Positions 9,329 to 31,906 of a stretch of DNA of 64,000 nucleotides are shown one piece after another (position 1 is the first letter of the stretch; each line of letters begins with the position of its first letter). A model generated the notes under the pieces. It searched no databases and had not been told where the DNA came from. It saw only the letters and a program-made list of their open reading frames with translations. Source of the stretch: Sporosarcina ureae. GTDB taxonomy: Bacteria > Bacillota > Bacilli > Bacillales_A > Planococcaceae. Location of the stretch: positions 1,708,501 to 1,772,500 of the forward strand of contig NZ_CP015348.1 of assembly GCF_002109325.1 (NCBI RefSeq), in the 5' to 3' direction. A program made the position numbers and the translations under genes.

Positions 9329-9451
9329 CAGACAGATAAAGTGTATACTTCCGCCTATTAGGTATTTTTATATAATTTCACGACTCCCGGACTATTAAAA
9401 CAAGGACTATTCTATTTACTATAACTACCTTAAATGAAAGGATGTGCCTTT

Positions 9452-11869
9452 ATGCCGTTATATACTCCTAGTATTTCTCCATATCTATCTACACTCCTTG
9501 ATGAGAAATTCTGCATATCCCTTATCGACTTAAGCGGTCGTCTAACTTATGTAAACCGAAACTTTTGTGAACTGACGGGTTATGACGAAGACGAATTGAT
9601 CGGCAGAACGTGGGGGAAGTTGAATAGAGGAGTCTCTACTGACGAGACGCTTTATATGCTTACAGAGCACTTTATACATAATACTGTCTATCAAGAAGCT
9701 ATTCAGATTTTTTCCAAGTCCGGTACAGTGCACTGGCTGGATGTCACCATTGTACCTATTTATGATACCGCTGGAAACTTAACAAATTATCTTTCACTTG
9801 ATATTGATGTGACTGGATCCAAGCTCGTCTCTAACGAGTACGCTAAAACACGTACCGACTTGCAAAATTTCAAATACGCATTGGACGAATCAGCAGTAGT
9901 CGTCATCACCAATCCACAAGGCGTTATTACTTATGTCAATAACCGCTTCTGTACTCTTTCGGAGTATTCACGTAAAGAATTGATAGGCAAAACACATCGG
10001 GTAGTTAATTCAGGTACGCATCCTAAAAGTTTCTTTGCGAATATGTGGGAAACGATTCAGTCCGGTCAAGTATGGAGGGGGGTCATCCGCAATAAATCAA
10101 AGTCCGGAAATCTGTATTGGGTTCACACTACAGTCGTTCCGTTCATCGGCTCGGATGGCAAGCCTTTTCAATACATTTCCATACGCCAAGATGTAACCTC
10201 GCAGATGGAAGCAGAAAAATCACTGGAATTGGCATTAAAAAATGATTTCAGTTTAACTGTAAAAAATCTTCAAAACGCTATTTTTAAATACTCTTTTGAT
10301 GAAAGTAATCAAATTAAAATTACATTACTAGAAGGAAAAGTAATTGAACAGTTAGGAATTACTGCGGATACTCTAAACCAATTCGTATCGGACAAAAAAT
10401 TTAATCTGTCTACATTTAAGCGACAACTTATAGGCGCTCTACTCGGCCGCGTTGCACAGTTTGAAATTGACTACCAATCCAGAACCTTCCTCGTTTATCT
10501 CTCCCCTATTTTCGAAGGGGAAAATGTAATCGAAGTTGTGGGTACCGCTAGCGATATTACAGACCGCAAAGAAGCTGAACGTTTAGTAGAACATATGGCA
10601 TTCCACGACCATCTAACCGGTTTGCCAAATAGACGATTATTAAAACAGACTGTAGAAGACCTAATCGAGACCAGAATAAACAGCCGAGAATCTTTCGCCT
10701 TGCTTTATATGGATTTAGATCGATTTAAAAACATCAATGATTCTATGGGACATTATATAGGAGATCAATTGCTAAAAGCAGTTGGCACAAGATTACAAAC
10801 TCTCGTTAGACAAAATGATTTAGTTGGCCGACTCAGTGGTGATGAATTTCTTATACTGTGTTCTTCCACGACAAAACAAGGAGCACAAATGGTTGCCCAG
10901 CGAATCGTCAATGAAGTATCGAAGTCTTTCCTCATAGAAAACTTGGAGATATTTATCGCACCAAGTATCGGGATCAGCATGTTTCCCGAGGACGGTGCAC
11001 GGTATGATACGCTGATCCGAAATGCAGACTCTGCTATGTATCTAGCAAAGCAATCAGGTAAGAGCACCTATCAATTTTTCACAGAAGAACTGTATAAAGA
11101 TTTAATGGAACGAACATTAATTGAGATGGAATTACGTCAAGTTCTTCACAAAAAGGAATTATCTCTGCATTATCAGCCACAATTTGAATTTGATACTGGA
11201 AATATGATTGGCGTAGAAGCTTTGGTCCGTTGGCAGCATCCTTCGCGCGGAACGATATCTCCCGGACAATTCATTCCGATAGCAGAAGAAACTGGAATGA
11301 TTCTCCCTATTGGTTTGTGGGTGCTTGAAACAGCTTGTAAACAAGCTAAAGAATGGCAAGACCTAGGTTATACTTCCCTGTTAATGAGTGTCAATGTTTC
11401 ATTACGTCAGTTTAAAAGTATTAGTTTTGTGACGGATGTCAAAGATACACTTCATAAAACTGGTCTGCAAGCCCGCTATTTGAATATCGAAATAACGGAA
11501 AGCATGACTTCTGACGTGGACTATTGCCAAAACATATTACAAGAGCTGCGAGATATCGGTATTAAGATTAGTATCGATGATTTCGGCACAGGCTATTCTT
11601 CGTTAAGTTATTTATCCAGGTTCCCTTTAACTCATCTGAAGATTGATCAATCGTTTATACGAGAGCTAAGTACCAATTCAGTAATCGTGAAAGCTATTAT
11701 CGACTTGGCTAAGAACTTGCACTTACGCGTGATTGCTGAAGGAGTAGAAACTTACGAGCAAGCTGAGTTCCTCAAGACACTCAACTGTGATGAAGCGCAA
11801 GGTTTCTTATATTCTAGACCCGTGCCTTCTGACGAACTATTACTGTTATTAAAAGATATACAATCATAG
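9452..11869 (+). CDS. PAS-PAS-GGDEF-EAL protein, probable c-di-GMP phosphodiesterase with a variant cyclase domain
   Basis: About 805 residues, apparently soluble with no membrane segment. Two PAS domains (about 10-130 and 140-255; FCELTGYDEDELIG and FCTLSEYSRKELIG) lead to a degenerate third sensor region and a GGDEF domain near 385-550. The signature reads SGDEF (about residue 460), so the first Gly is replaced and cyclase activity is uncertain. The EAL domain (about 570-805) is intact: EALVRW, ITES, DDFGTGYSSLSYL, LKIDQSFI and AEGVET. Net breakdown of c-di-GMP, modulated by PAS ligands, is the likely role. ATG 9452 lies 10 bases from AAAGG. The upstream ATG at 9434 lacks a site. A terminator follows. 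Confidence 0.88.
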   Translation: MPLYTPSISPYLSTLLDEKFCISLIDLSGRLTYVNRNFCELTGYDEDELIGRTWGKLNRGVSTDETLYMLTEHFIHNTVYQEAIQIFSKSGTVHWLDVTIVPIYDTAGNLTNYLSLDIDVTGSKLVSNEYAKTRTDLQNFKYALDESAVVVITNPQGVITYVNNRFCTLSEYSRKELIGKTHRVVNSGTHPKSFFANMWETIQSGQVWRGVIRNKSKSGNLYWVHTTVVPFIGSDGKPFQYISIRQDVTSQMEAEKSLELALKNDFSLTVKNLQNAIFKYSFDESNQIKITLLEGKVIEQLGITADTLNQFVSDKKFNLSTFKRQLIGALLGRVAQFEIDYQSRTFLVYLSPIFEGENVIEVVGTASDITDRKEAERLVEHMAFHDHLTGLPNRRLLKQTVEDLIETRINSRESFALLYMDLDRFKNINDSMGHYIGDQLLKAVGTRLQTLVRQNDLVGRLSGDEFLILCSSTTKQGAQMVAQRIVNEVSKSFLIENLEIFIAPSIGISMFPEDGARYDTLIRNADSAMYLAKQSGKSTYQFFTEELYKDLMERTLIEMELRQVLHKKELSLHYQPQFEFDTGNMIGVEALVRWQHPSRGTISPGQFIPIAEETGMILPIGLWVLETACKQAKEWQDLGYTSLLMSVNVSLRQFKSISFVTDVKDTLHKTGLQARYLNIEITESMTSDVDYCQNILQELRDIGIKISIDDFGTGYSSLSYLSRFPLTHLKIDQSFIRELSTNSVIVKAIIDLAKNLHLRVIAEGVETYEQAEFLKTLNCDEAQGFLYSRPVPSDELLLLLKDIQS

Positions 11870-14024: not shown

Positions 14025-14052
14025 AACCTCGGCATATTACTCATGCCGAGGT
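14025..14052 (-). terminator. Terminator of the Cache-GGDEF gene
   Basis: Stem CCTCGGCAT/ATGCCGAGG (14027-14051). On the minus strand it is followed by TTTTC. The cyclase stop codon lies in the loop. Confidence 0.75.
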
Positions 14053-15608
14053 TCATCGGAAACGACGATGGTCTTATTGCGTCCTGTACGTTTGGCTTCA
14101 TACAGACTTTGATCCGCCAACTCGATAAGCCGCGCTGGATGATTTGCATGCAGCGGATAGGCAGCGACCCCCGCTGACATCGTGATCACTTCACCACAAG
14201 GACTGATCGTGTCCTCCAGTTTTTCACGAAGCCGTTCTGCTGTCAAATAAGCAGTCACCTTATCTGCTTTCGGTAAAAGAATGACGAATTCTTCACCTCC
14301 GTAGCGACAGCAAATGTCTTGTTCGCGAACCGTTCGTTGCATTAAGTCAGCTAAATAAATCAATACCTCGTCACCAACTGAATGACCATAACGATCATTG
14401 ACACGCTTAAACTTATCTATATCTAAAATAATGAAAGCGAATGGTATTTCATCAGCTACCCATTGTGACATAAGACTATTCATGGTTCGACGATTGGTCA
14501 ACTTCGTCAGTGGATCTGTTGTTGATTCATGTATAAAATAGTTTATCTCTTTTTTAAAGTAATCTAAACTATTTAACACGGCTCCTTTTAACTGCCTTGC
14601 TTCATAGTACCAATCCGAGATACTTTCCATTTTTTCTTTTTGATCTGATTCTATACTGCTTTCGGTATAATATGCTAACCTCTGAAGCGGCAGGGCGATC
14701 TTTCTAGAAAAGTATCTAACGAGTAAGAACGATAGTAGTAGTAATGGCAAAGACTTAAATGCCATCTCTAACACCATATCTCTGGCAGGAGCGACGGAAA
14801 CATCCAATGGTCTTTGTGATACGATTCCCCAATTAGCAATTGGTATATATGCATATCCTGCCAACATCGGAATCCCTTTTGTGTTGATCAATTCCAAAAA
14901 ACCACTATTTCCGCTACTTACCTTTTGAACAACAATATTACTGGAGACATTATCTTTTAAGCGTTCTTCAAGCTGATGATAAATCAATTTACCTTCCGTA
15001 TCCACCACATATACATAGGAGCCATCATCATAGAAATGATCCCCCAGAATTTGTTCTAGCACGTTCGGCTTATGTAGGTATATAGCACCTCCCAAAAACC
15101 CTTTATACTCCTGATTGACTATTAAAGGGACACTGATAAAAACGATTAGTTCACCAGTGATTCCTACGTAAGGTGGAGATATAGTAGGTTTTTTTTCTTT
15201 AATAGCTTGTTGCGCACCGAATGAAGTTAACTTTTTTCCAAGTAGGTCTAGACTTGGTGGCGATACACCGAGTACAACACCTTCATCAGAAGAAACAGCA
15301 ACTGAATTGAATGTACTTGTCTGCTGCCTGATACGCTCTGCTATTTGATTCAACTGAGGTTGTGCTTTTGAATCTTCTAGAAGAGGTAGTACTTCTACCG
15401 CATTCGTTTCAAGTGTTTTTAACGTATCACGCAAAAAGGCATCAGTAGTAGATGACAACTTCTTGGCATATGCATAGTTCGTTTCCAAGGTCGAGTCTAT
15501 CAAGGTTTGCTTGTTTACACGATAGCCAACCGTAGTACTAGTCAGAAACGTTAAAACGATAGCCAAGGTTGCTACGACTTGAATTAAACTTTTCAAGGAC
15601 CATCTCAT
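14037..15608 (-). CDS. Membrane-bound diguanylate cyclase with an extracellular Cache sensor domain
   Basis: 523 residues. TM helix 1 (about 8-28) and TM helix 2 (about 280-300) flank an extracellular double-Cache-like domain (YVGITGELIVFISVPL, GSYVYVVDTEGKLIYH). A short linker leads to the GGDEF domain (about 350-515). The active site is intact: LTKLTNRR, DIDKFKRVND and GGEEF near residue 436, which supports c-di-GMP synthesis. I see no RxxD inhibitory site directly upstream of GGEEF (the residues there are DICCRY). The Cache domain suggests control by a small external molecule. The gene has its own promoter and ends in a hairpin. Confidence 0.9.
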   Translation of the reverse strand: MRWSLKSLIQVVATLAIVLTFLTSTTVGYRVNKQTLIDSTLETNYAYAKKLSSTTDAFLRDTLKTLETNAVEVLPLLEDSKAQPQLNQIAERIRQQTSTFNSVAVSSDEGVVLGVSPPSLDLLGKKLTSFGAQQAIKEKKPTISPPYVGITGELIVFISVPLIVNQEYKGFLGGAIYLHKPNVLEQILGDHFYDDGSYVYVVDTEGKLIYHQLEERLKDNVSSNIVVQKVSSGNSGFLELINTKGIPMLAGYAYIPIANWGIVSQRPLDVSVAPARDMVLEMAFKSLPLLLLSFLLVRYFSRKIALPLQRLAYYTESSIESDQKEKMESISDWYYEARQLKGAVLNSLDYFKKEINYFIHESTTDPLTKLTNRRTMNSLMSQWVADEIPFAFIILDIDKFKRVNDRYGHSVGDEVLIYLADLMQRTVREQDICCRYGGEEFVILLPKADKVTAYLTAERLREKLEDTISPCGEVITMSAGVAAYPLHANHPARLIELADQSLYEAKRTGRNKTIVVSDEPRHE

Positions 15609-20687: not shown

Positions 20688-21935
20688 TCAACTCAAGTCT
20701 TCCTCTATTCCATGTGACCAGCGCATGGCTTGAAGGTAGATCTCACTTAACACTTTCTTTGGGATCGACAGCTCAGCAGATAACCGTTCTACGGTTTCCC
20801 AGTCAAAACATTCTACAGCTTTAACCAATTGTAGATAAGAAGACATTTCAGTCTGTTTTCCATTTAACGTGGCAATAATGACGTCCGATAGTGATAGCAA
20901 CGGCAATATGTCTTCCCATTTCCGACGCATTACCGCATCGATCAATGAAAACATGCCTGTGAGAAAGTATTCATCCTTATTTGGTTTTCTATTATACTTC
21001 GCCAACTGTTCACATGTTCTTGCACGACGAAGTGATAATTCAACGAGCACTTTCACACGACCATCCTGTTGCTCTACACCTAAGTCATGCAACATCAGAA
21101 CCTGCAACCACTTCTTTGTACCGTTTAAGCCAATCAACATAATCGCTTGCTTAATCGAGCTGATTTGCCGTGGAATATCGAAGGCTAGTGAATTAATAAA
21201 ACGCAATAGTTTATAGGAGATCGAAACGTCACGCATAATCAGATCGCAGAGTTGATTAATGGATTGAGTATCCTTACGGAAATAATCAATAATCTGTAAG
21301 TGCACTAGCGTATTAGGTGGAATATCTGCACTTTTAATAATTTCTGGTTTCGCAAAGAAATAACCTTGAAACAAATCATATCCACTTCTTAATGCAAGTT
21401 GATAATCCGCTTCCGTTTCTACTTTTTCTGCTAGTAAAATCAGCTTTGGATATTTCCGTAAAAATGTAGCAATACGATTTTTCTGAACTACACTCGTCAG
21501 CATGAAATCCACTTTGACAATATCTACCAGCTCAAATAACTGGGAGTACATCAAGTACTGGTCTTGTAAAATAAAATCATCAAGCGCTAACGTGAAACCC
21601 GCTTCTTTAAACATGCGTAAACGATGTAACAGGGCAGGAGTGATTTCCACGTCTTCCAGAATCTCTATAACGACTTGATTGGGATCTAAACTCATAAATA
21701 AATCCTGCGCCAATAGCTCGCCTGAGAAGTTAATGAATGAACGAACACCACTCGTTACTTGATCAATTCCTACAGAGAGGAATGTATTGACCAACAAACT
21801 AATTGTAGCCTGTTCGGGGTTAATATCAGGAAAGAAGTTCTCTTCGCTATTTCGATACAATAATTCGTATGCGTATATATTACCTGATCGATCAAATATC
21901 GGTTGTCTACCGATAAAGATGGAGTAATCATCCAT
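20688..21935 (-). CDS. EAL-HDOD signalling protein (YuxH-like)
   Basis: 415 residues. The N-terminal half is an EAL-fold domain (IFIGRQPIFDRSGNIYAYELLYR, shown here as the family start). The EAL triad is replaced by YELLYR, and the metal/catalytic motifs are reduced to LALDDF and AEKVET. c-di-GMP hydrolysis is therefore doubtful and a binding or scaffold role is likelier. The C-terminal HDOD domain (about 200-390; SYKLLRFINS and QAIMLIGLNG) lacks HD catalytic residues, as usual for the family. GGAGATG precedes ATG 21935. Monocistronic, with a terminator. B. subtilis YuxH has the same architecture. Confidence 0.87.
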   Translation of the reverse strand: MDDYSIFIGRQPIFDRSGNIYAYELLYRNSEENFFPDINPEQATISLLVNTFLSVGIDQVTSGVRSFINFSGELLAQDLFMSLDPNQVVIEILEDVEITPALLHRLRMFKEAGFTLALDDFILQDQYLMYSQLFELVDIVKVDFMLTSVVQKNRIATFLRKYPKLILLAEKVETEADYQLALRSGYDLFQGYFFAKPEIIKSADIPPNTLVHLQIIDYFRKDTQSINQLCDLIMRDVSISYKLLRFINSLAFDIPRQISSIKQAIMLIGLNGTKKWLQVLMLHDLGVEQQDGRVKVLVELSLRRARTCEQLAKYNRKPNKDEYFLTGMFSLIDAVMRRKWEDILPLLSLSDVIIATLNGKQTEMSSYLQLVKAVECFDWETVERLSAELSIPKKVLSEIYLQAMRWSHGIEEDLS

Positions 21936-25084: not shown

Positions 25085-25155
25085 TCTTCAGTTTATCCTC
25101 TCGTAATTGGGGAATAGGAAAGGCAGACTACTATTTTACGATGGGAGGATTTTAT

Positions 25156-28788: not shown

Positions 28789-29979
28789 TTGGGAAGAGTT
28801 GTAGGAACGGTTGTTAGAGGATTGCGTTGCCCAATCATTAATGAAGGCGACAATATTGAACAGATCGTAGTGGACAGTGTCATAGAAGCATCTGAAAAAG
28901 AAAACATTACATTTCAAGATAAAGATATCGTCTCGATCACAGAGTCGATTGTAGCGCGTGCACAAGGTAACTATGCAACGATCAGCGATATCGCTAAGGA
29001 TATTGAAGCAAAATTCGGTGATGATACGATTGGTGTCATTTTCCCTATTCTTAGCCGCAACCGTTTTGGAAACTGCTTACGCGGTATCGCGAAAGGTGCA
29101 AAGAAAATCGTCTTGATGCTTAGCTACCCTTCCGATGAAGTCGGTAATCACTTGGTTGAGCTAGATCGTTTAGATGAAAAGGGAGTTAATCCTTGGACTG
29201 ATGTATTGACTGAAGCAGAGTTCAGAGAGCATTTCGGTGATAACAAACACCCATTCACGGGCGTTGATTATATCGAATACTATAAATCATTGATGGACGA
29301 GTTCGGTGTAGAACACGAGGTCATTTTCTCCAATAATGCGAGAACGATTTTGGACTATACGAAGACAGTCTTGACATGCGATATTCATACACGTTTTAGA
29401 ACAAAGCGTATTTTGGAAGCAAACGGTGCCGAAAAGATTTACAGCCTAGACGACATCTTGGCAACTTCCATTGACGGCAGTGGCTACAATGAAGAGTTCG
29501 GTTTACTCGGCGCAAACAAAGCTCAAGAAGACAGTATCAAACTATTCCCACATAGCTGTCAGCCTATAGTAGACAACATCCAGAAAATGCTTAAAGATCG
29601 AACTGGAAAACACATTGAAGTAATGGTGTACGGAGACGGTGCATTTAAAGACCCGGTAGGTAAGATTTGGGAACTGGCTGATCCAGTCGTATCACCTGCT
29701 TATACGGAAGGCCTTGACGGTATTCCAAATGAAGTGAAACTAAAATACTTGGCTGATAATGATTTCTCTGAGTTACGTGGAGAAGAGCTAAAGAAAGCTG
29801 TTACTGATTTCATTGAGAAGAAAGATACTAATCTAATGGGATCCATGGCTTCACAAGGAACGACTCCTCGTAAGCTGACGGATTTAATCGGTTCATTATC
29901 TGACCTAACTTCAGGCAGCGGCGACAAAGGTACACCTATCGTCTTTATCCAAGGATACTTCGATAACTACACAAACTAA
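28789..29979 (+). CDS. CofE-like (coenzyme F420-0:L-glutamate ligase family) protein
   Basis: 396 residues starting at TTG 28789, 8 bases after AAGGAG. The N-terminal [14 protein letters not shown] and [18 protein letters not shown] are CofE-type features. The TESIVA motif and the later Asp/Glu-rich segments probably bind metal and nucleotide. CofE adds glutamate to F420-0 with GTP, but no cofC, cofD or fbi genes are nearby and Bacillales generally lack F420. The protein is also longer than archaeal CofE (about 250 residues). It is probably a related amide ligase with another acceptor. A LysR regulator is divergent and a terminator follows. Confidence 0.7.
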
Positions 29980-29986
29980 GAATAAA

Positions 29987-30018
29987 TACCTGTGAGAATA
30001 CTCACAGGTGTTTTTTTA
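29987..30018 (+). terminator. Terminator of the CofE-like gene
   Basis: Perfect stem ACCTGTGAG/CTCACAGGT followed by GTTTTTTT. Confidence 0.92.
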
Positions 30019-30065: not shown

Positions 30066-30107
30066 GGTAATAATTTGAGTGATTGTCTTCAGAAGGGATT
30101 TGGGTGT

Positions 30108-30920
30108 ATGTCTATAGATATCAAGAAAAGAAACGCAGTACATATAACAGGTTCAGGAGAACAAACTATCATGTTCGCACACGGCTTTGGTTGTGATCAG
30201 ACGGTATGGAATCATGTCATACCTGCTTTTGAAGAACATTATCAAGTTGTGACATTCGACTATGTCGGCTCTGGCAAAAGTGATAAAACGGCTTATTCAG
30301 CAGAACGCTATGAAACATTGCCTGGCTATGCTTTAGATGTAATAGAAGTGTGTGACGCACTGAAACTAAAAAACATTATCTATGTCGGACACTCCGTAAG
30401 TGGAATGATTGGTGTACTTGCCTCAATCCAAAGACCTGATCTGATGGAGAAACTAATCATGATTGGTCCTTCACCTCACTATTTGAATGAACCTAATTAC
30501 ATTGGTGGTTTTGAACGTGAGGATATTGATGAATTGCTTGATATGATGGAGATGAACTATAAAGAATTCACTAAGTATCTAGCGCCGATTGCGATGAAAA
30601 ATGAAGACCGTCCACATCTATCTGAAGAGTTTGAGTGCATGCTGGATACAAATGATCCCGCTATTGCACGACGCTTTGCGGAAGCAACATTCATGTCAGA
30701 TGTTCGTGGAGAATTATCTAAGGTTACGACAAAAGCGCTTATTTTACAGCCAACCGAAGACACGATCGTACCGATTGAAGTAGGTCACTATATCAAAAAC
30801 TGCATTTCGGGCAGCGAATTGGTTATCATGGAAGCAAAAGGGCATAATCCACACATCAGTCATCCTGAAGAGACGATTAAGGAAATTACACGTTTTATTG
30901 AAAAGGACAGGAGCGTATAA
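30108..30920 (+). CDS. rsbQ: RsbQ-type alpha/beta hydrolase
   Basis: 270 residues. The triad is Ser in GHSVSGM (about residue 96), Asp in PTEDTIVP (about 219) and His in KGHNPHISHP (about 247). MFAHGFGCDQTVW supplies the oxyanion region. It matches B. subtilis RsbQ closely in layout. RsbQ acts on an unknown small molecule and is needed for the PAS-containing phosphatase RsbP in the energy-stress branch of sigma-B control; plant strigolactone receptors are homologues. Here the next gene, 3 bases away, is a PAS-GGDEF protein rather than rsbP. ATG 30108 has AGAAGGG 10 bases upstream. Confidence 0.9.
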   Translation: MSIDIKKRNAVHITGSGEQTIMFAHGFGCDQTVWNHVIPAFEEHYQVVTFDYVGSGKSDKTAYSAERYETLPGYALDVIEVCDALKLKNIIYVGHSVSGMIGVLASIQRPDLMEKLIMIGPSPHYLNEPNYIGGFEREDIDELLDMMEMNYKEFTKYLAPIAMKNEDRPHLSEEFECMLDTNDPAIARRFAEATFMSDVRGELSKVTTKALILQPTEDTIVPIEVGHYIKNCISGSELVIMEAKGHNPHISHPEETIKEITRFIEKDRSV

Positions 30921-30923
30921 ATC

Positions 30924-31868
30924 ATGGATGAGCGGTTGAACTTATTGCCTTGCGGATATTTCGTCTTAACAAGTGATTGGGAATTTGTTGAAATGAATAA
31001 GACGATGCGAGATATATTGCGCTTGAATAAAATGCCGTGCCATATGCATGATGTGTTAACAGTTCCATCCAGAATATATTTTCAGACCTATTTTGTACCT
31101 TCTATTTCTGTACATCAAGAAGTACGGGAAATGTATTTAAACTTCAAAGTAGAAAAACGAACAGTTCCTGTATTAATGAATGTCAGTGAACGCGATGGAC
31201 TGTATGAAGGAGTGATCGTGCAGATTAAAGTACGAGATGAATACGAAAATCAGTTGTTGAAGTCTAAGAAAGAAGCAGAGCGAATTCAGCAACGAACAGA
31301 TGAAGCTTACAATAAACTACTTGGATTGCTCGAAGAAGTAGAGTACAAGCAACAACAACTTTTGGAGTTAAATGGAGAATTGCAAGAGTTGGCTACTCGC
31401 GACGAATTGACTGGACTGTATAATCGTCGCGTGTTTCAAAGAAGTCTCGATGCCGCGATTGATCGTGCAGAACACTACGAGGCGCACTCATTTTCTTTAC
31501 TGCTATTTGATATTGACCATTTCAAAACTGTCAACGATACTCATGGCCATCAAGTAGGCGATGATGTATTGAAGGAGCTGGCTTGTAAGCTAGAGAACAG
31601 AATTGATTCTCCAGACTTAGTAGCGCGTATTGGTGGAGAAGAGTTTGCCGTACTATTTGACGACCCTAATCATCAAAATAACTGTACAAAGGCAGAAGAT
31701 CTTCGCCGCTATATACAGGATTCAGAATGGGTCAGTATAGCGATCACTGTCAGTATGGGAATCACAAGTTATCAGGATGGTGATCAATCCAGTAATATTT
31801 ACGTTAGAGCTGACGATGCCCAGTATGCTTCTAAACGTAATGGACGAAATTGCCTAACATGTTTATAA
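30924..31868 (+). CDS. PAS-coiled coil-GGDEF diguanylate cyclase linked to RsbQ
   Basis: 314 residues, cytosolic. A PAS-like sensor (about 1-110; PCGYFVLTSDWEFVEMN, SRIYFQTYFVPSI, VPVLMNVSER) is joined by a coiled coil (about 112-155) to a GGDEF domain (about 156-314). The cyclase site is intact: LTGLYNRR, DIDHFKTVND and GGEEF near residue 237. The SRIYFQTYF block recurs in PAS domains of RsbP-like phosphatases and sensor kinases. The 3-base gap to rsbQ implies one operon. I infer that RsbQ delivers or processes a ligand for this PAS domain and so controls c-di-GMP synthesis. A terminator follows. Confidence 0.88.
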   Translation: MDERLNLLPCGYFVLTSDWEFVEMNKTMRDILRLNKMPCHMHDVLTVPSRIYFQTYFVPSISVHQEVREMYLNFKVEKRTVPVLMNVSERDGLYEGVIVQIKVRDEYENQLLKSKKEAERIQQRTDEAYNKLLGLLEEVEYKQQQLLELNGELQELATRDELTGLYNRRVFQRSLDAAIDRAEHYEAHSFSLLLFDIDHFKTVNDTHGHQVGDDVLKELACKLENRIDSPDLVARIGGEEFAVLFDDPNHQNNCTKAEDLRRYIQDSEWVSIAITVSMGITSYQDGDQSSNIYVRADDAQYASKRNGRNCLTCL

Positions 31869-31869
31869 A

Positions 31870-31906
31870 AAGACACTACAAAGTGAACATTGTAGTGTCT
31901 TTTTTA
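31870..31906 (+). terminator. Terminator of the rsbQ-GGDEF operon
   Basis: Perfect stem AGACACTACA/TGTAGTGTCT followed by TTTTTATA. Confidence 0.92.

Follow-up and report, generated by a model that had tools for sequence, protein, structure and literature searches.

An RsbQ hydrolase gene paired with a PAS-GGEEF cyclase gene in Sporosarcina ureae: a probable sensing module with c-di-GMP output

The question raised by this locus is what an RsbQ-type hydrolase controls when the gene behind its own encodes a diguanylate cyclase and not a phosphatase. The window, which is the whole stretch of 64,000 nucleotides that was analysed, belongs to a complete Sporosarcina genome of 3.38 Mb. The first gene of the pair (30108..30920, + strand) begins with ATG and encodes an alpha/beta hydrolase of the RsbQ/KAI2/D14 family with 270 amino acids; an in-frame TTG upstream at 30075 is a possible alternative start. 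The PDB was searched with this protein using phmmer. The top match was B. subtilis RsbQ (1wom, E 3.8e-88, residues 5-264 of 270), followed by Olei00960 and then by plant KAI2 and D14 (E about 1e-54 to 1e-64). The nucleophile Ser96 of the GHSVSG motif (codon 30393-30395, +), Asp218 (30759-30761, +) and His246 (30843-30845, +) were invariant across 60 aligned relatives. Among named loci, those nearest by RsbQ were a Sporosarcina ureae MAG (97% identity) and S. ureae DSM 2281 (87%). The first gene is, by homology, an RsbQ orthologue. The reading frame, the best PDB match and the intact catalytic triad bear out the earlier note, which had placed RsbQ at 30108, and the ranking of KAI2 and D14 directly behind the bacterial entries supports the kinship it had stated with karrikin and strigolactone receptors.

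The stop codon of rsbQ (TAA, 30918-30920) and the ATG of the cyclase gene at 30924 are separated by exactly 3 bases. This second gene (30924..31868, +) encodes 314 amino acids read as an RsbP-type PAS domain, a probable coiled-coil helix and a GGEEF diguanylate cyclase. The PAS domain (residues 1-103, 30924..31232, +) carries LPCG, Y52, Y56, P59, E69 and P82. Its Pfam match in the window protein itself lies under the Pfam cut-off (E 0.012), and 43 of 66 orthologues matched PAS_9 at E <= 0.01. The AlphaFold2 model, built with 66 sequences, predicted a PAS-like alpha/beta domain at 1-103, a single continuous helix at 104-158 (31233..31397, +) and then the cyclase. The GGDEF domain (residues 157-309, 31392..31850, +) matched Pfam PF00990 with E 1.1e-41 and is predicted to fold like PadC, PleD and DgcB; the phytochrome-activated cyclase PadC (5llw) and the LOV-activated cyclase 8c05 were among its top fold matches. 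Full-length Foldseek matches of the model included the PAS-GGDEF-EAL protein PA0861 and 8c05, with different domain angles. The active-site motif G237 G238 E239 E240 F241 (31632..31646, +) and the metal and substrate residues D196, N204 and D205 were invariant in 66 sequences. The I-site position (31605-31616, +) reads DSPD in place of the RxxD retained in 72 of 143 relatives, and because of this replacement the cyclase may escape product inhibition through the I-site.

The length of the linker is kept in relatives. Simple patterns located both the PAS exit and the DxLT motif that opens the cyclase in 89 proteins, and in 85 of these the two lay 48 residues apart; among the four exceptions, one had 34 residues, two heptads shorter, and three reflected a double pattern match or an extra domain. 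A constant length of this kind would be expected of a coiled coil in fixed register, the coiled coil being judged from the modelled helix and the linker length. The order of PAS and coiled coil, the intact GGEEF output and the 3-base gap described in the earlier note agree with the GGDEF match, the PAS_9 matches of orthologues and the modelled fold.

The PAS domain was compared with the RsbQ-partnered PAS class of Nadezhdin, Brody and Price (2011, PMC3183031). That paper gives this class nine distinctive residues (C10, L13, L48, Q53, F55, C56, Y59, E72 and P86 in RsbP numbering), no DIT motif, a PAS domain that is always N-terminal and a coiled coil of at least 21 residues. With the numbering transferred via L206, an RsbP-type PAS-PPM protein, and not via B. 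subtilis RsbP itself, the window PAS reads C, F, L, R, Y, F, Y, E and P at the nine positions. It is identical at C10, L48, Y59, E72 and P86, positions known for strong phenotypes or as part of the consensus. The positions of L13 and C56 are hydrophobic (Phe), that of F55 is aromatic (Tyr) and that of Q53 is basic (Arg), in agreement with the consensus of the class (PMC3183031). The hPhG motif with Cys10 and the P62 equivalent are also present. No DIT motif was found in residues 86-115. The domain starts at residue 1, its gene lying directly 3' of rsbQ, and the modelled helix 104-158 would provide a coiled coil longer than the 21-residue minimum. In a set of 142 PAS domains joined to cyclases, at least 136 retained each of the equivalents of P62, E72 and P86, and the F55 position was occupied by Ile or Leu in 40. 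By alignment, the window protein carries most of the class-defining PAS residues.

The immediate surroundings were then considered. An intrinsic-terminator-like hairpin (29984..30013, +; 13-pair stem and T run) follows the upstream gene, and an inverted repeat flanked by A and T runs (31869..31905), read from the sequence and absent from the output of the consensus terminator scan, is a probable terminator shared with a convergent MFS gene. Since the hairpin ends the upstream gene and the repeat follows the pair, rsbQ and the cyclase gene look like a two-gene unit of their own. The upstream gene (28789-29979, +) encodes an F420_ligase family protein of 396 amino acids (PF01996, E 1e-56), which is longer than CofE and scores well below the cut-off for true CofE. 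In the Sporosarcina loci examined, the pair occupies the same place 3' of this gene, and the convergent MFS gene adjoins it in all except L009. The promoter scan of the window gave a number of sites not above that of shuffled sequence. A sigma-B-like box (GTTTAT-N13-GGGGAAT, 25091-25115, +) lies about 25 bases before a catalase gene at 25141, one of five such boxes found in the window against 2.5 expected by chance.

The search for RsbQ covered 261 genomes from the window's family, 398 from its phylum and 399 from its class. At E <= 1e-40 it was present in 135 of the 261 family genomes, compared to 6 of the 398 sampled across the phylum. The gene downstream was classified for 169 distinct rsbQ loci, with classes assigned by motif and checked in Pfam for the cyclases and for a single example each of the PPM, PAS-only and STAS partners. 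A PAS-GGDEF protein was the partner at 138 loci and a truncated or broken form of it at 3; the others were RsbR-like STAS proteins (9), PAS-PPM proteins (8), histidine kinases (4) and PAS-coil proteins without output (4), and at 3 loci no partner was found. These figures come from de-duplicated loci but carry a bias, as the window RsbQ was the query, most loci belong to one family and a subset of the matches was fetched; Gram-negatives are represented by four loci together with those of PMC3183031. The gap from rsbQ to the PAS-GGDEF gene was between -60 and +64 bases at 137 of the 138 loci, with a median of 10.5. The pair was present in all the Sporosarcina loci closest to the window, and the same order recurs in many genera; as judged from gene order, this recurrence excludes a chance adjacency.

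Cyclase output is the rule in the window's family and the RsbP-type PAS-PPM protein is the exception. The earlier note had taken the cyclase as a departure from the norm and had proposed counting the outputs of rsbQ neighbours; the count runs the other way, and the arrangement was in print in 2011. In a tree of RsbQ with 175 rows, which include some duplicates and enter L149 as 'none' with no effect on the PPM clade, the eight PPM-linked sequences formed one side of a single branch (support 98). The outputs changed about 8 times over the tree. The survey numbers alter the usual picture, as the RsbP-sigma-B form is a rare form of the module in this family.

The partners outside the cyclase class were also observed. 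In one genus of the family (g13), the gene behind a copy of rsbQ encodes an RsbR-like STAS protein (L083, L084, L085, L090, L091, L096, L098, L099 and L101/L181). This paralogue is 54-58% identical to the window RsbQ, and the RsbR-like protein (285-300 amino acids) is encoded 47-107 bases 3' of it. The C-terminal half of the RsbR-like protein forms a STAS domain whose nearest match is stressosome RsbR (PDB 9o4r, E 5e-26), and the N-terminal half of the one example checked gave no relevant Pfam family above the cut-off. The genes at L083, L084, L090 and L091 run rsbQ, PAS-GGEEF, rsbQ copy and RsbR-like gene, the second pair lying within about 2 kb. By its sequence, the RsbR-like protein would add a fourth kind to the partners of RsbQ and would point to the stressosome. 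Four genomes of another family have, behind rsbQ, the gene of a PAS-coil protein (143-174 amino acids) with an RsbP-type PAS and a helix that lacks an output domain (L066:1507-, L194:824-1255, L203:822-1346 and L208:827-1345); the next genes lie on the opposite strand, and the protein may be either a PAS acting in trans or a partner that has decayed. Two loci of the class Bacilli (L204 and L205) have RsbQ followed by a PAS histidine kinase, assigned by motif only; the kinase outputs of the 2011 set (PMC3183031) occur in Gram-negatives only. The STAS partner, the output-less PAS partner and the Bacilli kinases had no mention in the open-access literature searched. The STAS and output-less partners go beyond the three published outputs.

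The pair is very probably a bipartite RsbQ-PAS sensing module with a diguanylate cyclase output, in which RsbQ would switch c-di-GMP synthesis via the PAS domain and the helix. In the proposed mechanism, RsbQ, whose active site is intact, would bind or hydrolyse a small molecule there and would make contact with the PAS domain encoded by the next gene; the signal would travel down the coiled-coil helix, these two steps being modelled on B. subtilis RsbQ-RsbP. The change in the helix would alter the pairing of two GGEEF domains in a dimer, and c-di-GMP synthesis would be switched, probably upwards. The divergence of RsbQ was compared with that of both partner domains over 124 pairs and tracked the PAS domain more than the cyclase (partial r 0.66 and 0.44, PAS higher in 300 of 300 resamplings); both correlations are inflated by shared ancestry and only their difference is meaningful, so that this is a weak independent sign of contact. 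The stop codon of rsbQ shares its reading frame with the start of the PAS gene, which makes a read-through fusion a natural construct for modelling, and 60 paired fusions were used with it. The AlphaFold model of the fusion had good confidence within each domain, but its pTM of 0.65 is too low to support an interface. The F55 equivalent, shown to be needed in RsbP for RsbQ binding, is not strictly kept, and the open-access literature searched held neither a biochemical or genetic experiment on RsbQ-cyclase pairs nor a demonstration of c-di-GMP control by one; both points weigh against the module.

Two published models differ on which half of the module senses the ligand. In one of them (Model 2), RsbQ is the receptor, in the manner of KAI2 and D14: the ligand would alter the contact with PAS, and hydrolysis would only reset the protein. 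The close sequence kinship of RsbQ with these receptors favours this reading, and RsbQ as the sensing half fits its occurrence beside partners of at least two kinds that lack either a PAS domain or an output. No bacterial ligand is known and the partner argument is one of gene neighbourhood alone, and with these points set against it the reading has close to an even chance. In the other (Model 1 of 2011), RsbQ would convert a precursor and pass the product to the PAS pocket, the PAS domain being the true sensor. The 'hydrolase-made small molecule' of the earlier note is this model. The invariant triad is in accordance with it, as is the observation in B. subtilis that triad mutations are null for signalling (PMC3183031). 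A receptor would need the triad as well, for binding, and the same paper records no ligand in RsbP-PAS; conversion by RsbQ is a real but less probable possibility. A wider reading holds that RsbQ of the Caryophanaceae mainly serves c-di-GMP with the ligand read by RsbQ as in KAI2 and D14, that PAS-PPM is a single offshoot, and that the copy of one genus moved to an RsbR-like stressosome protein. This combination is rather unlikely as a whole; if true, the RsbQ hydrolase would be a portable receptor with an exchangeable partner.

Mere co-transcription of a metabolic hydrolase with a PAS-GGEEF protein sensing something unrelated would suit the lack of a direct test of cyclase-type pairs in the literature, but it is improbable given the recurrence over many genera, the class-specific PAS residues and the correlated divergence of RsbQ and PAS.

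The bipartite module with cyclase output was finally set against the rest of the genome, which was examined by family and by protein searches. Four PPM (SpoIIE-type) domains were found, in RsbU, RsbX, SpoIIE and a receiver-PPM protein that adjoins an anti-sigma-kinase-like gene; none of the four has a PAS domain and the genome has no rsbP. A second RsbP-type PAS was not found either, and since the next match in the genome had an E of only 0.05, a second PAS protein as client of RsbQ was rejected. No second RsbQ of the same type was present, the others matching at E 1e-9 or worse with 28% identity. The local pair is therefore left without a rival partner. That RsbQ serves sigma-B through a partner elsewhere, with the cyclase as a decoy neighbour, is scarcely credible: RsbU and RsbX sit in a complete sigma-B operon, but RsbU is the phosphatase of that operon, no other RsbP-type PAS or PAS-PPM protein occurs in the complete genome and no sigma-B-like box was found before rsbQ. 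As rsbP and a second RsbP-type PAS are missing and the sigma-B operon uses RsbU, the pair most likely feeds c-di-GMP signalling and not sigma-B. The earlier note had looked to a separate rsbP-rsbQ pair as grounds for dropping this idea, and none exists; its proposal of c-di-GMP in place of sigma-B holds for the joining of RsbQ-PAS input to a cyclase, and fails where it saw a departure from the norm.

The genome contains further c-di-GMP machinery, with 14 GGDEF, 8 EAL and 2 PilZ matches. Three such genes lie within 21 kb of the pair: PAS-PAS-GGDEF-EAL (window 9434-11869, +), Cache-GGDEF (14037-15608, -) and an EAL-HDOD protein (20688-21935, -). Outside the window in the same genome, a GGDEF domain broken by one TAG stop (G000:C1:1489113-1489586) is a likely pseudogene.

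The comparison with known systems places the pair among described arrangements. Plant KAI2 and D14 are like the window RsbQ in their alpha/beta hydrolase family and Ser-His-Asp triad, and signal via the F-box protein MAX2/D3 and repressor degradation, without a PAS partner. According to PMC10504578, the endogenous ligand of KAI2 is still unidentified. A two-gene pair with c-di-GMP output, for which live reporters exist, would give a simple screen for bacterial RsbQ ligands. The cyclases 8c05 and PadC (5llw) share a sensor, a coiled-coil linker and GGDEF with the window protein, but use a light sensor with its own chromophore and have no separate hydrolase partner. A study of RsbU in 2025 proposed that, through coiled-coil linkers of this kind, one set of sensors can govern phosphatases, kinases and cyclases alike; RsbQ-PAS is among its cited examples (PMC12143880). 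B. subtilis RsbQ-RsbP shares with the window pair the RsbQ orthologue, the gene order and the order of PAS and coiled coil; there RsbQ binds the PAS of RsbP, which F55A and Y59A disrupt (PMC3183031). RsbP ends in a PPM phosphatase that acts on sigma-B by way of RsbV, whereas the window protein ends in a cyclase. The 2011 paper gives the RsbQ-PAS module a PPM phosphatase, a histidine kinase or a diguanylate cyclase as its output and reports the cyclase form from both Gram-positives and Gram-negatives; it already holds the modular view and the question of ligand production versus ligand sensing. The text of PMC3183031 makes no mention of Sporosarcina, Planococcus or Lysinibacillus, and its full set of 45 is in a figure. 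The window pair is hence not new, the RsbQ-PAS-GGDEF arrangement being known since 2011; the window adds one member to these modules and the survey adds numbers. The published examples, such as that of Psychromonas ingrahamii (A1SVT3), have RsbQ directly upstream, an N-terminal RsbP-type PAS, a coiled coil and a single GGDEF domain as the window pair does, and the organism is the sole difference.
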